Shown one piece after another: positions 11,629 through 26,791 of a stretch of 64,000 nucleotides of DNA. The position numbers and the translations under genes are program-made. The notes beneath the pieces are model-generated. The model saw only the letters and a program-made list of their open reading frames with translations. It had not been told where the DNA came from and made no database searches. How positions within the stretch are numbered: position 1 is the stretch's first letter; each line of letters starts with the position of its first letter. This DNA comes from Sphaerisporangium siamense (GTDB lineage Bacteria; Actinomycetota; Actinomycetes; Streptosporangiales; Streptosporangiaceae), in the NCBI RefSeq assembly GCF_014205275.1, contig NZ_JACHND010000001.1, forward strand, positions 4,092,001-4,156,000, in the 5' to 3' direction.

Positions 11629-13133
11629 ATGACGACCCTCACCGCTTGGGAGGCCGCGGCCCGCATGTTCGAGCCGCCGGTGCACCGCTGGGCCACCCCC
11701 GGCGAGCTCGCCGCCGCGATCGACCCCACCACGGTCCAGACCGAAGCCCTCCACCTCATCGACCAGGCGCTCGTCGACGTCGCCGAAGGCCGCTGCGACC
11801 GGCTCATCGTCACGGTGCCGCCCCAAGAGGGAAAAGCACCCGGGTCACCACAGTCGGTCCCCTGTGGATGCTGACCCGCAACCCGGACCTGCGCATCGCA
11901 ATCGCCTGCTACGCCCAGGACCTGGCCGATGAGTTCGGCCGCAACATCCGCAACCACATCACCGGCAACGACGGCACCGACGGCAGCCTCGACCTTGGCC
12001 TGCGCATCGCCCCCGACAACGGCGCCGCCCGCCGCTGGCGCATCGCCGGCCGCCGCGGCGGCGTCCGCGCCGTCGGCCTCACCGCCGGCCTCACCGGCAA
12101 ACCCGCCGACGCGATCTTCATCGACGACCCGATCGCCGACCTCATCCAGGCCAACTCCGCCGCCTGGCGCGAGGTCGTCTGGGGCTTCTGGACAGCCGTC
12201 GCCAACACCCGCCTGGCCCCCGGCGCGCCCGTGGTAGTGATCTTGACTCGCTGGCATGAGGACGACCTCGTCGGCCGGCTCCTGGCCGCCGAGGACGCCC
12301 ACCGCTGGCGCGTGATCAACATCCCCGCGCAGGCCGACCACGACCCGGCCAAGGGCGAGACCGACCCGCTCGGCCGCGAGCCCGGCGAATATCTCAACTC
12401 CGCGCGCGGCCGCACCGTCGAGCAGTGGGAGCAGATCCGCGTCGCTGTCGGCTCCCGGGTCTGGAACGCCCTCTACCAGGGGCGGCCCACGGCACCCGAG
12501 GGTGACCTGTTCGAACGCGGCTGGTGGCGCGAGTACACCTCGCCGCGGTGGATCGTCCGCGACGACGGCTCCTACTGGGCGATCAACCCCGACGAGGTCA
12601 TCCAGTCCTGGGACATGGCCTTCAAGGACACCGACAGCAGCGACTGGGTCGTCGGCCAGGTCTGGGCCCGCTGGGGCCTGCAGGTCTACCTGCTCGACCA
12701 GGTCCGCGACCGGATGACCTTCGTCGAGACCCGCAAGGCGGTCCGCCGCCTGGCCGTCAAGTGGCCCCAGGCCACGCTGAAGCTCGTGGAGGACAAGGCC
12801 AACGGCCCCGCCGTAATCAACAGCCTCAGCAACACGGTGGCCGGGCTCATCCCCGAGGAACCCCACGGCAGCAAGTACGCGCGGGCCGCCGCGGTCTCCC
12901 CCTTCGCCGAGGCCGGGCAGGTCTTCCTCCCGGCCCCCGAGCTCGCCCCGTGGGTCGGCGACTTCATCGAAGAACACGCCTCCTTTCCCAACGGCCGCCA
13001 CGACGACCAGGTCGACGGCACCTCTCAGGCCATCAACCGGCTCCTGCTGGCCCCGCTACTCGCCGGCACCCTCATCGTCGAGGCCGACGAGCTCGACAGC
13101 GAGCTGGACGACTACGAGATCAGCCCGATCTGA
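11629..13133 (+). CDS. Terminase large subunit, expressed by -1 frameshift
   Basis: The packaging motor ATPase/nuclease. From ATG 11629 (ribosome site GGGAGG) the first frame gives about 69 residues ending TVPPQEGK and would stop at 11874. The -1 frame continues as STRVTT and on to 13133. Together they make an intact Walker A, PPQEGKST. Walker B is AIFIDDP, followed by a conserved VVVILTRWHEDDL segment. The nuclease half has SWDMAFKDTDSSDWVVGQ, LVEDKANG and HDDQVDG, typical of Terminase_6. Neither frame alone makes an ATPase. The junction is a canonical slippery heptamer with downstream stem; a one-base sequencing error is the alternative. Confidence 0.85.
11829..11877 (+). promoter_or_regulatory. 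Candidate -1 programmed frameshift signal
   Basis: Slippery heptamer G GGA AAA at 11829-11835, in the correct frame for the first reading frame. A six-base spacer follows. Then comes a stem of GGGTCA CCACAG (11842-11853) paired with CTGTGG (11862-11867) and TGACCC (11872-11877), with a four-base bulge and an eight-base loop. The zero-frame stop TGA lies within the stem at 11872-11874. Confidence 0.65.
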
Positions 13134-13151
13134 CCATGCGGGGAGGTGACC

Positions 13152-14876
13152 GTGGGTTTCACCGACACCGTGCGTGAACGCGTTGGTCTTCCCCTCCGGG
13201 AGACGTTCGCGCGCTGGACAGGCCACACCGAGCTGGCCGAGCAGCTGCGGCAGGAGCGCGAGAACGCCGCGTTCTTCCGCGAGAGCCTGTCCGAGCTCGA
13301 AAACCGGATGCGCGAGCCCGGCTATGTCCACCTCACCGCGCTCGCCGAGCGGGAGTTCTCCCGCGAGGGCCTGGCCGACATCACCGCGGTGGTCCGGGTC
13401 ATGGCGATCAAGAACCCGTTGATCAAGCGGGGGCTGGCTCTGCGCGCCTCCTACGTGTGGGGCCAGGGCGTGCAGGTCACGGCCCGGGCCGCGGGGCAGC
13501 GCGACCGGCAGGGCCGCCGCCTGCAGGACGTCAACACCGTCATCCAAGGCTTCCTCGACGACCCGGGCAACCGCCGTGCGTTCTCCTCCCAGCAGGCCCG
13601 CCAGGAGCTGGAGCGCGCCCTCGGTACCGACGGCAACCTGTTCTTCCCCCTGTTCACCAGCCCGCGGACCGGGCGGGTGCAGATCCGCACGGTGCCGTGG
13701 GACGAGATCGTCGAGGTCATCACCAACCCCGAGGACTCCAGCGAGCCCTGGTACTACCGGCGCGAGTACTGGATCGACCGGCGCGACATCGAATCCGGCG
13801 GCGTGATCACCGAGCGCCGCTCGGCGATCTACCCGGCGCTCGGGTACCGGCCCAAGATCCGGCCGCGCCGCATCGCCACCGTCACCGGCGGCAAGGCCGA
13901 CGTCATGTGGGACGCCCCGATCCTGCACGTCAGCGTCAACCGGCCCCTGGGCTCCCGGTGGGGCATCCCCGACGCCTACGCCGCGGTGGACTGGGCCAAC
14001 GCCTACCGGGAGTTCCTGACCGACTGGGCCCGGCTGGTCAAGTCCTTGAGCCGGTTCGCCTGGCGCTTCACCAGCAAGGGCAGCAAGCAGGCCGCCGCGC
14101 GAGCCCGGCTCGCCGCCGCCCCGGCCCGCGACACCGTCACCGGCGACCCGCAGTACGCCGGCGCGACCGCGCTCGGCACCCCCGACATGGTCTTGGAGGC
14201 CATCCCCAAGTCCGGCGCCACCATCGACAGCGACTCCGGCCGGCCGCTGGCGGCGATGACCGCCGCAGCGCTCGACGTCCCGGTCACCATGCTGCTCGGC
14301 GACCCCGGGCAGACCGGCGCCCGCGCGGTCGCCGAGACCCTCGACCAGCCGACCGAGCTGGCCATGCAGATGCGCCGCGAGCTGTGGACCGACGTCCAGC
14401 GCACCATCTACGACTACGTGATCGACCAGTCGGTCAAGGCGCCCATGGGCATGCTCAAGGGCGCCGTCACCGTGGACGAGGACGGCCAGGAGGTCGTCAC
14501 GCTGCGCGGCGTGACCGAGCGCACCATCGACATCGTCTGGCCCGACCTGGACGACGTCGACCAGGGCCAGCTCATCAAGGCCATCGTCGAGGCCGACTCC
14601 ACCCAGTACCTGCCTCCGCTGATCGTGCTGAGGCAGTTGCTGCAGGCGCTGAAGGTCAGAGACGTGGACGAGATCCTGGCGCGCGTGACCGACGACAACG
14701 GAGAGTTCGTCGCGCCGAAGGCCAACGCCGGCCAGCAGGCGGTGGACCGGTTCCGCCGCGGTGAGGACCCCGCGGCCGCGTTCGGCGGCGGTGACTCCCC
14801 GCCGGCGCGGCCCGACCAGCCGCGCCGCGACGAGCGCCGGCCACCCCGTGGGGAGAAGGACCCGGTGTCGGTATGA
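13152..14876 (+). CDS. Portal protein
   Basis: A 574-residue portal, the dodecameric channel through which DNA enters the head. Signs include a long N-terminal helix, YVHLTALAEREFSREGLADI, a wing region with VPWDEIVEVITNP, and the stem-crown region AMTAAALDVPVTMLLGDPGQTGARAVAETLDQPTELAM (read in parts). The C-terminus is Pro/Arg-rich. GTG 13152 is chosen because GGGGAGG at 13140-13146 is well spaced. It follows the terminase directly, as usual. Confidence 0.88.
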   Translation: MGFTDTVRERVGLPLRETFARWTGHTELAEQLRQERENAAFFRESLSELENRMREPGYVHLTALAEREFSREGLADITAVVRVMAIKNPLIKRGLALRASYVWGQGVQVTARAAGQRDRQGRRLQDVNTVIQGFLDDPGNRRAFSSQQARQELERALGTDGNLFFPLFTSPRTGRVQIRTVPWDEIVEVITNPEDSSEPWYYRREYWIDRRDIESGGVITERRSAIYPALGYRPKIRPRRIATVTGGKADVMWDAPILHVSVNRPLGSRWGIPDAYAAVDWANAYREFLTDWARLVKSLSRFAWRFTSKGSKQAAARARLAAAPARDTVTGDPQYAGATALGTPDMVLEAIPKSGATIDSDSGRPLAAMTAAALDVPVTMLLGDPGQTGARAVAETLDQPTELAMQMRRELWTDVQRTIYDYVIDQSVKAPMGMLKGAVTVDEDGQEVVTLRGVTERTIDIVWPDLDDVDQGQLIKAIVEADSTQYLPPLIVLRQLLQALKVRDVDEILARVTDDNGEFVAPKANAGQQAVDRFRRGEDPAAAFGGGDSPPARPDQPRRDERRPPRGEKDPVSV

Positions 14877-15091
14877 CCTTGCACCTCATCCCGGCGGCCG
14901 ACGCGGGTGAGCACACCGCGTCGGGGACATGCCCCTGCGGGCCCCGCGCGCGGACGGTGCGGCATGAGGGCGGGCGTCGCGTGGCCGTCGTCCACGGGCC
15001 CCTCGGGCGGGACGGGGGCGGGCGTGGCGATCACCGAGCGGACCCTGCGACTGGTCCGGGAGATGCGGGCCAACCTCGACAAGATCGTTGA
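14873..15091 (+). CDS. Small phage protein, LHLIPADD-type
   Basis: A 72-residue protein whose ATG overlaps the portal stop. The start (LHLIPAADAGEHTASGTCPC) matches a small family often found among head genes of actinophages, with a CxC pair and a VHGPLGRDG end. The reading frame runs on into the MuF gene. The function is unknown. Confidence 0.6.
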   Translation: MTLHLIPAADAGEHTASGTCPCGPRARTVRHEGGRRVAVVHGPLGRDGGGRGDHRADPATGPGDAGQPRQDR

Positions 15092-25410: not shown

Positions 25411-25899
25411 ATGGCTGGTGCAGACCTTCTCGGCGACGGCAACGTCAAGGTCACCTTCTGCCTGACCATCGCCGACATCGACAACCCCACCGCTGCAGAG
25501 CTGAACGGCGGCGTGGACCTGCAGGAGCACATCACCAAGCAGGGCCTGGACATCCAGCCCGACCAGGCGTCGGTGGACAACACCGCGCTCGCCTCGCGCA
25601 CCGAGACCGAGGACGCCGGCACCGTGTCCTACAAGATCGAGCTGACCTGCAAGCGCAAGCAGCTCACGCTGGAGGACATCGCCTGGCACACCCTCACCGA
25701 CGGCCAGCTCGGCTACCTGGCGGTGCGGCGCAACCTGCCGCACGAGACCGCCTGGGCCGCAGGGCAGGACGCCGAGGTCCACCCGGTCCGCTGCGGCCGC
25801 CCGAACATGCAGCCGCCTGAGCTGAACACCGCCCAGCAGTTCAAGAGCAAGCTGTTCAACCACGCCGAGTCCGCGCCGTCTGCGGTGGTGGCCGCCTGA
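25411..25899 (+). CDS. Major tail tube protein
   Basis: A 162-residue protein. LLGDGNVKVTFCLTIADIDN then ELNGGVDLQEHITKQGLD and TYKIELTCKRK-like strands match the tail tube proteins of actinobacterial siphoviruses. It polymerises into the tail tube around the tape measure. AAGGAG precedes the ATG; the tail assembly chaperone follows at once, as expected. Confidence 0.82.
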   Translation: MAGADLLGDGNVKVTFCLTIADIDNPTAAELNGGVDLQEHITKQGLDIQPDQASVDNTALASRTETEDAGTVSYKIELTCKRKQLTLEDIAWHTLTDGQLGYLAVRRNLPHETAWAAGQDAEVHPVRCGRPNMQPPELNTAQQFKSKLFNHAESAPSAVVAA

Positions 25900-26435
25900 T
25901 GGACCTGAAGATCGATGACATCCTCGGGAAGCTGCAGCTGCCGGAGAAGAGCGTCCCGCTGTGCCTGCGCGCTGACCTGCAGGCCCGCTTCGACACCCTG
26001 GAGCGGGACCTGCGGGCGGCGCAGCGCGCACCCGAGCAGGACTCCCTGGCCGGCAGCGGCGCCACCGCGCGGGAGATCGCCAACCAGATCGAGGCGATCC
26101 GGACGGAGATGCAGGCCCACACCGTCGCCTTCCTGCTGAGGGCCTTGCCCAACAAGGAGTGGTCCGACCTTCTCAAGCAGCACCCACCCCGCAAGGGCAA
26201 CCAGGGCGACCTCGTCTCGGACTACAACACCGAGACCTTCCCCGTCGCGGCGCTGGCGGCGTGCTGCAAGTCGCCCAAGATGACCGAAGACCAAGCGGGG
26301 CAGCTGGTGGATGCGATCACCAACGGCCAGTGGTCCCGGCTCACCATGGCGATCGGCGAGCTGAACAACGGCGGTGGGGACATCCCTTTCTCCGTCGCCG
26401 CATCCGCGCTGGCGGGCGGCACGCCGACGAGCTAA
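25899..26435 (+). CDS. Tail assembly chaperone (short form)
   Basis: A 178-residue helical protein, the gpG-like chaperone. Its ATG overlaps the tail tube stop. Near its end, C CCT TTC at 26384-26390 is a canonical slippery heptamer in the right frame; a -1 shift there gives the long form with the next frame. Chaperones of this class coat the tape measure during tail assembly. The pattern fits siphoviruses in general. Confidence 0.8.
   Translation: MDLKIDDILGKLQLPEKSVPLCLRADLQARFDTLERDLRAAQRAPEQDSLAGSGATAREIANQIEAIRTEMQAHTVAFLLRALPNKEWSDLLKQHPPRKGNQGDLVSDYNTETFPVAALAACCKSPKMTEDQAGQLVDAITNGQWSRLTMAIGELNNGGGDIPFSVAASALAGGTPTS
26384..26390 (+). promoter_or_regulatory. Slippery heptamer for tail chaperone frameshift
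   Basis: C CCT TTC in the zero frame of the chaperone, 43 bases before its stop. CCGC/GCGG pairs within 26400-26420 could form a small downstream stem. Confidence 0.7.
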
Positions 26436-26791
26436 CCCTGGCCGCCTACTACCGGATTCCGCGGTCCAAGCTGCTGGGCCGCGAGCCGGTGGAGACGACG
26501 ACCTACCACTACGACGAGCAGGGCCGGCTCACCCACACGGTGACCCTTCGGGAGCCGGAGTGGCTGGAGGATGACGTCGCGTGGGCGTTGGCGTGGAAGC
26601 AGGAGCAGGCCGGTCTGTGCCCGGGGTGCAAGCTGCCGTTGGAGGAGACGACCGACCCGGCCAACGACGGACGCTACCGGGTGCCTCCGGCAACTCGGTG
26701 CTTTGCGTGCACTCCGCTAGCCGAGGCGCATAAGGAGTATGCCGCCTCAGCCCCAGGGGTACTGCTGCACGCGGAAAAGGACGAGGAATAA
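26390..26791 (+). CDS. Tail assembly chaperone, frameshift extension (gpGT-like)
   Basis: The -1 frame after the slippery site 26384-26390 gives 133 residues joined to the first 164 of the short form. The extension contains IPRSKLLGREPVETT, WLEDDVAWALAWKQEQAGLC and a zinc-like pair set CPGCKLPLEETTD ... RCFACTPL. This Cys-rich extension is common in actinophage chaperones. There is no good independent start, which supports expression by frameshift. Confidence 0.75.
   Translation, partial: LRRRIRAGGRHADELTLAAYYRIPRSKLLGREPVETTTYHYDEQGRLTHTVTLREPEWLEDDVAWALAWKQEQAGLCPGCKLPLEETTDPANDGRYRVPPATRCFACTPLAEAHKEYAASAPGVLLHAEKDEE

Follow-up and report, generated by a model that had tools for sequence, protein, structure and literature searches.

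A probable −1 ribosomal frameshift site within the Walker A motif of a prophage large terminase from Sphaerisporangium siamense

The window, which is the whole 64,000-nucleotide stretch of Sphaerisporangium siamense DNA analysed here, harbors a large terminase (TerL) gene that is distributed over two reading frames of the plus strand. The zero frame starts at ATG 11629, with a GGGAGGG close to its 5′ side, and terminates at the TGA at 11872–11874. Its 81-residue product (11629–11874) ends with PPQEGK and 12 additional codons before the stop, and residues 1–70 match TerL relatives. The −1 frame (11835–13133, 432 amino acids plus stop) contributes the Ser and Thr of the Walker A motif, the remaining ATPase, and the nuclease domain. 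Read from the last A of the AAA codon, it begins with STRV and contains no stop before the one ending at 13133. This frame is matched by PHROG 38 (E 7.2e-92) and Terminase_6C (E 1.1e-13). The read-through product of 501 residues reaches E 2e-102 and 7e-14 against the same two families, and Terminase_6N is barely reached (22.3 bits at a cut-off of 22). TerL relatives are matched by both halves, with the junction at residues 68–70, and the intact Walker A motif PPQEGKST is present only in the −1 shifted product. The split across two frames, which a preliminary description of this DNA had proposed, is confirmed by the coordinates, the open −1 frame, and the TerL homology; that slippage yields PPQEGKST is borne out by the read-through translation.

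The portal protein gene lies directly 3′ of TerL (13146–14876, plus strand; PHROG 10963, E 1.3e-117) and is followed by a Mu F-like gene at 14907. The genes for the portal, the Mu F-like protein, the head protease/capsid, the major tail protein, the tape measure, and a Dit-like minor tail protein are all open. Domain homology, the intact Walker A of the shifted product, and the adjoining portal and head genes place the protein in the TerL family. The only match to it in the whole genome (8.5 Mb, two contigs) is the gene itself. The nearest TerL is that of Sphaerisporangium album (locus L002), which shows 96% identity over the matched part and is in frame. This relative carries an interruption of about 1.2 kb close to the C-terminal end (L002 6137–7334), at a point where the window gene is continuous (12974–12977). 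Independent initiation of the second half of the window gene was considered and rejected, as the first −1 frame ATG 3′ of the site lies past the Walker A motif.

The frames meet at the slippery heptamer G_GGA_AAA (11829–11835, plus strand), which is located at the Gly and Lys codons of Walker A and is in phase with the surrounding zero-frame codons CAA GAG GGA AAA GCA. The heptamer and its phase had been correctly recognized previously, with 11829–11836 named as the stretch. It is followed by a predicted hairpin (11840–11886, plus strand) whose first pair forms four bases after the heptamer and which spans the zero-frame stop. RNAfold pairs 11840–11845 with 11881–11886 and 11848–11853 with 11862–11867, and an alternative outer stem that includes the stop can be read from the sequence between 11841–11847 and 11872–11878. 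The 12-bp bulged stem containing the zero-frame stop that had been described is thus roughly recovered, but it is not the unique fold. Taken alone, the fold of the window does not stand out from dinucleotide shuffles (z −0.86; 39 of 200 shuffles fold equally well), and 3.5% of synonymous codon choices fold equally well. The case for more than chance rests on the comparison with relatives.

Including the window gene, 13 non-identical shifted TerLs were found, all of which carry GGGAAAA in the same phase at the same codon. Two additional loci were dropped before counting, L116, whose compared stretch is the same as that of L098, and L119, which shares its contig with L091. The near copies L105/L122 and L117/L120 were kept among the 13 and merged in the control tests. 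None of the 13 −1 frames contains a stop as far as fetched: eight are complete with 418–472 codons, and the other five remain open up to where the retrieved sequence ends (118–698 codons). The zero-frame tails past AAA vary from 12 to 249 codons.

Shifted genes are rare among their relatives. A heptamer-blind fetch with the C-terminal protein returned 94 loci, of which 86 are in frame, two carry an intein, two are shifted, and four lack a visible Walker A; the two shifted among the 90 classed loci (L025 and L091) both contain GGGAAAA. Fetches with shifted genes as queries returned at least 97 loci. Among the matches listed, four of the 95 classed loci are shifted, each with the heptamer, four have an insertion ending in HN/S, and 87 are in frame; two were left unclassed. 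Those four shifted loci all lie on contigs already found, one being the query's own. Nine of the 87 in-frame loci among the matches listed have another residue in place of the motif Gly, and L294, L321, L322, L334, L339, L347, and L354 were classed as in frame by a long in-frame upstream region. Scanning for the pattern of the shifted form hit 28 contigs, 10 of them in TerLs, and the same scan with AGT instead of AGC hit 22 contigs, three of them in TerLs. Matching genomes in a pattern search of the order numbered 3 of 345, with only the match of the window genome falling in TerL, and in a sample of the class 2 of 394, namely the window genome and one already found. No TerL break at Walker A was seen in plaque-forming isolates among the best 60 of 1461, 40 of 2436, and 40 of 1908 records; in these listed records (60, 40, and 40) TerL is a single piece except in Staphylococcus phage S-CoN_Ph27, where it is in three. 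The preliminary description had suggested looking for the heptamer in homologues and had regarded homologues with a continuous frame and no slippery site as speaking against a programmed shift. The heptamer is present in 12 other non-identical shifted TerLs; most homologues are nevertheless continuous (86 of 90, the nearest at 96% identity included), so that the site is recurrent and not conserved by descent.

The dependence of the shift on the heptamer was assessed by codon context. With AAA AGC held fixed, genes with GAG before the Gly codon were compared to genes with GAA, which precludes the heptamer. GAG contexts comprise 10 shifted genes and six in-frame genes with GGG or GGA (18 with any Gly codon), whereas GAA contexts comprise no shifted gene and eight in-frame genes with GGG or GGA (21 with any Gly codon). 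The difference is significant in both versions (Fisher p 0.0064 and 0.0026, respectively), also after merging of near copies (p 0.0068 and 0.0049) and when the window is additionally omitted (p 0.015). The scan with the GAA pattern revealed no shifted TerL with a destroyed heptamer. Its three matches near TerL homology are the zero-frame inteins of L058 and L160 and a weak hit with 24% identity, L149. The Gln codon before the heptamer is CAA in 7 of 13 shifted and 14 of 98 in-frame genes (p 0.0027).

Folding behind the site was compared between shifted and in-frame TerLs: the 51-base stretch that follows the Ser codon was folded and set against 200 synonymous sequences, weighted according to the codon use of each gene. 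The mean z is −2.43 in shifted genes (n = 13) versus −0.44 in in-frame genes (n = 98; p 1.3e-6), and the contrast persists at p 1.1e-5 when near copies and duplicates are merged (11 versus 90). A z of −2 or lower is reached by 10 of 13 shifted and, with 32 in-frame loci added, by 10 of 130 in-frame TerLs. Six later stretches of the gene served for comparison; three of them differ in the same direction at a nominal p of 0.03–0.05, with a lowest mean z of −0.86. The folding effect is far stronger behind the heptamer than elsewhere in the gene, but it is not exclusive to this place. The number of pairs in a fixed register does not exceed that of shuffles (59 and 78 of 500), partly because other pairings are formed in L104, L098, L276, and the window. 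As to the stem that the preliminary description had suggested seeking in homologues, the shifted TerLs as a group show an excess of folding, with exceptions on both sides: L276 has none (z +0.45) and L117/L120 are weak among the shifted genes, and L057, L172, L193, and L322 fold strongly in frame.

When mapped on a quick 107-row tree, the 12 shifted rows require 10 changes, nine of which are forced by supported branches, as compared to 11.5 with shuffled labels. An earlier tree required eight changes for 10 shifted rows. The two trees include 12 of 13 and 10 of 11 shifted rows, respectively; L117 is too short, and long-branch rows were omitted from the second tree. In nine independent pairs of a shifted and an in-frame gene, a hairpin with z of −2 or lower goes with the shift in 5.4 pairs on average, the opposite never occurs, and 3.6 are equal (sign test, median p 0.06). 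Between shifted genes (L091/L287, L114/L120, and L114/L277), dN/dS amounts to 0.13–0.35, and in-frame pairs give 0.13 and 0.26. The insertion in the S. album gene spoils a dN/dS value, and the window gene was therefore compared with it by codon position: the 360 codons after the site show 11, 4, and 33 differences at positions 1, 2, and 3. At the site itself, the two genes differ by several bases and not by one lost base.

Taken together, the window gene probably encodes a functional large terminase, the full-length form of which would be generated by −1 programmed ribosomal frameshifting at G_GGA_AAA. For heptamers of this kind, the standard model is a tandem slip of two tRNAs by one base. 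Ribosomes would translate TerL as far as the lysine of Walker A, where the tRNAs for Gly and Lys on the heptamer would re-pair one base back while the downstream hairpin holds the ribosome. Shifted ribosomes would go on with S-T-R to yield the 501-residue TerL, and unshifted ribosomes would halt after 12 codons, leaving an 81-residue fragment that has no ATPase. Production of the motor probably requires a −1 slip, because other phage lineages show the same heptamer at this place, usually with a hairpin; the ATPase would thus exist only when the ribosome slips. The 81-residue product looks like a by-product, as the zero-frame product is not conserved between lineages. Slippage on transcription was set aside since four A seem too few. 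From the sequences we infer that slippage actually takes place, at some rate, and that the phage tolerates, or benefits from, having less TerL. A passage in Sharma 2014 quotes earlier E. coli work in which this heptamer was inefficient (PMC4066793), and a slippage of 6–7% is given as measured for phage tail chaperone genes in a passage of PMC3711429. A few percent would still yield some TerL, and few motors are presumably needed per cell.

Other explanations account for parts of these observations. The G and A runs are of a type that is error-prone in some methods, and the window lies on one of two contigs of its assembly, but a sequencing or assembly error in the homopolymer is highly improbable: separate records hold 12 other non-identical genes in the same state, no shifted genes come from GAA contexts that have similar runs, shifted genes show the excess of hairpins, and the several base differences to the nearest relative do not resemble one lost base. 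Scarcely more probable is a broken TerL in a decaying prophage. The prophage does reside on a chromosome, and the genome holds no second match to its TerL; however, its neighboring phage genes are open and recognizable, none of the 13 −1 frames has a stop as far as fetched, and substitutions follow a coding pattern. A mutational bias, in which a pre-existing hairpin causes polymerases to drop an adjacent base so that shifted genes are frequent mutants and not selected alleles, would fit the joint occurrence of shift and hairpin and the in-frame genes with a fair hairpin (L322, L172, and L165). It leaves unexplained why only heptamer-bearing shifted genes are seen, and in-frame genes one base from the heptamer fold ordinarily on average (mean z −0.57, n = 10, versus −0.41 for the remaining 120), which makes this bias an improbable cause, if slightly less so than decay.

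A far more serious alternative, to which we give a little less than an even chance, concerns the purpose of the shift and not whether slippage occurs. An accidental base loss in the G/A run may survive when it happens to leave G_GGA_AAA, since sufficient TerL would still be produced, with a yield-raising hairpin selected later; the frameshift would be real but would regulate nothing. The scattering of shifted genes with at least nine changes on the tree, close in-frame relatives that are one base longer (e.g., L120/L165 and L287/L322), and the unconserved zero-frame products agree with such a rescue. The strong hairpins are not predicted by it unless tuning comes fast, and the shifted pair L091/L287 is far apart (dS 0.73), though possibly of separate origins. 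Inteins offer a further reading. They are inserted exactly between the Lys and Ser of Walker A in L028, L058, and L160 (Ala-type start), the insertions ending in HN/S in L303, L343, L344, and L372 (among the matches listed) occupy the same K/S junction, and this is the very point of the frame change in the window. Passages of PMC5050341 describe TerL inteins of mycobacteriophages at this Walker A junction as well as active endonucleases of TerL inteins, and the bypassed insert of T4 gene 60 is suggested to protect from a homing nuclease in a section of a review (PMC5009743). On these grounds, shifted alleles may represent an escape from homing, in which a one-base change spoils the endonuclease site and the motor survives through slippage, with a hairpin selected to tune it, although this appears unlikely; control of the TerL dose by frameshifting would in that case have followed as a repeatedly evolved consequence. 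Elsewhere in the gene, L115 and L187 have TerL insertions of about 0.8 kb near query residue 207, L115 itself being shifted, and L014, a TerL from a metagenome-assembled genome, shows a late frame change (query residues 437–456) that is possibly an error.

The interpretation given in the preliminary description is supported in part. A programmed −1 frameshift at the TerL Walker A, as it had put it, is well supported by the 12 other shifted TerLs, the heptamer dependence, and the hairpin excess, but not by conservation through descent; its tie of motor dose to frameshift efficiency would be one possible purpose beside mere rescue. The slippery site would have arisen several times among related TerLs, and a genuine −1 programmed frameshift that evolved repeatedly is very probable.

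The site shares the X_XXY_YYZ heptamer, the −1 shift, and the location in a phage late gene with the tail chaperone frameshift of the lambda G/GT type. Tail chaperone frameshifting makes use of both products, whereas the zero-frame product of the window lacks the ATPase, is unconserved, and belongs to a packaging motor gene. The use of both chaperone products is also stated in a passage of PMC12846349. The position differs likewise: the site lies in TerL, 5′ of the portal gene, and the chaperone position is 25899–26791. There, C_CCT_TTC at 26384–26390 is in phase in the gene 25899–26435, and the −1 frame is open to 26791, which makes it a candidate chaperone frameshift; the chaperone identity of 25899–26435 is assigned by position alone (PHROG 19248, unknown function). 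In the actinophage Hau3, recoding of the terminase has been proposed as well, as described in a section of a review (PMC5009743), but there bypassing is linked to a UUA codon, in contrast to the −1 shift at a slippery heptamer. The IS1/IS3 transposases resemble the window in that the enzyme is obtained only as the shifted product; passages of PMC4066793 include G_GGA_AAA among their motifs and list it among the more efficient ones used by IS elements. They differ as two overlapping genes in transposons compared to a phage motor. The Walker A inteins of phage TerLs interrupt the same motif at the junction of Lys and the next residue (excerpts of PMC5050341), but act through protein splicing of an inserted element and not through a one-base frame change. 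Listings and passages of the open-access literature revealed no −1 frameshift site in a terminase, and the word “terminase” is absent from the main text of PMC3711429. In phages, tail chaperones are the known case of frameshifting, and as far as the open-access literature shows, a −1 site in a terminase appears to be new.

For annotation, the finding is a warning, as genes of this type are readily annotated as a pair of broken fragments, with their prophages scored as defective. If the interpretation is true, a catalytic P-loop would exist only in a recoded product, with the site regained repeatedly in one gene family. The repeated origin at the insertion point of inteins makes the question of why the shift arises a testable one. 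Frameshifting in phages would gain a new place, and the amount of packaging motor that a phage requires could be probed directly.
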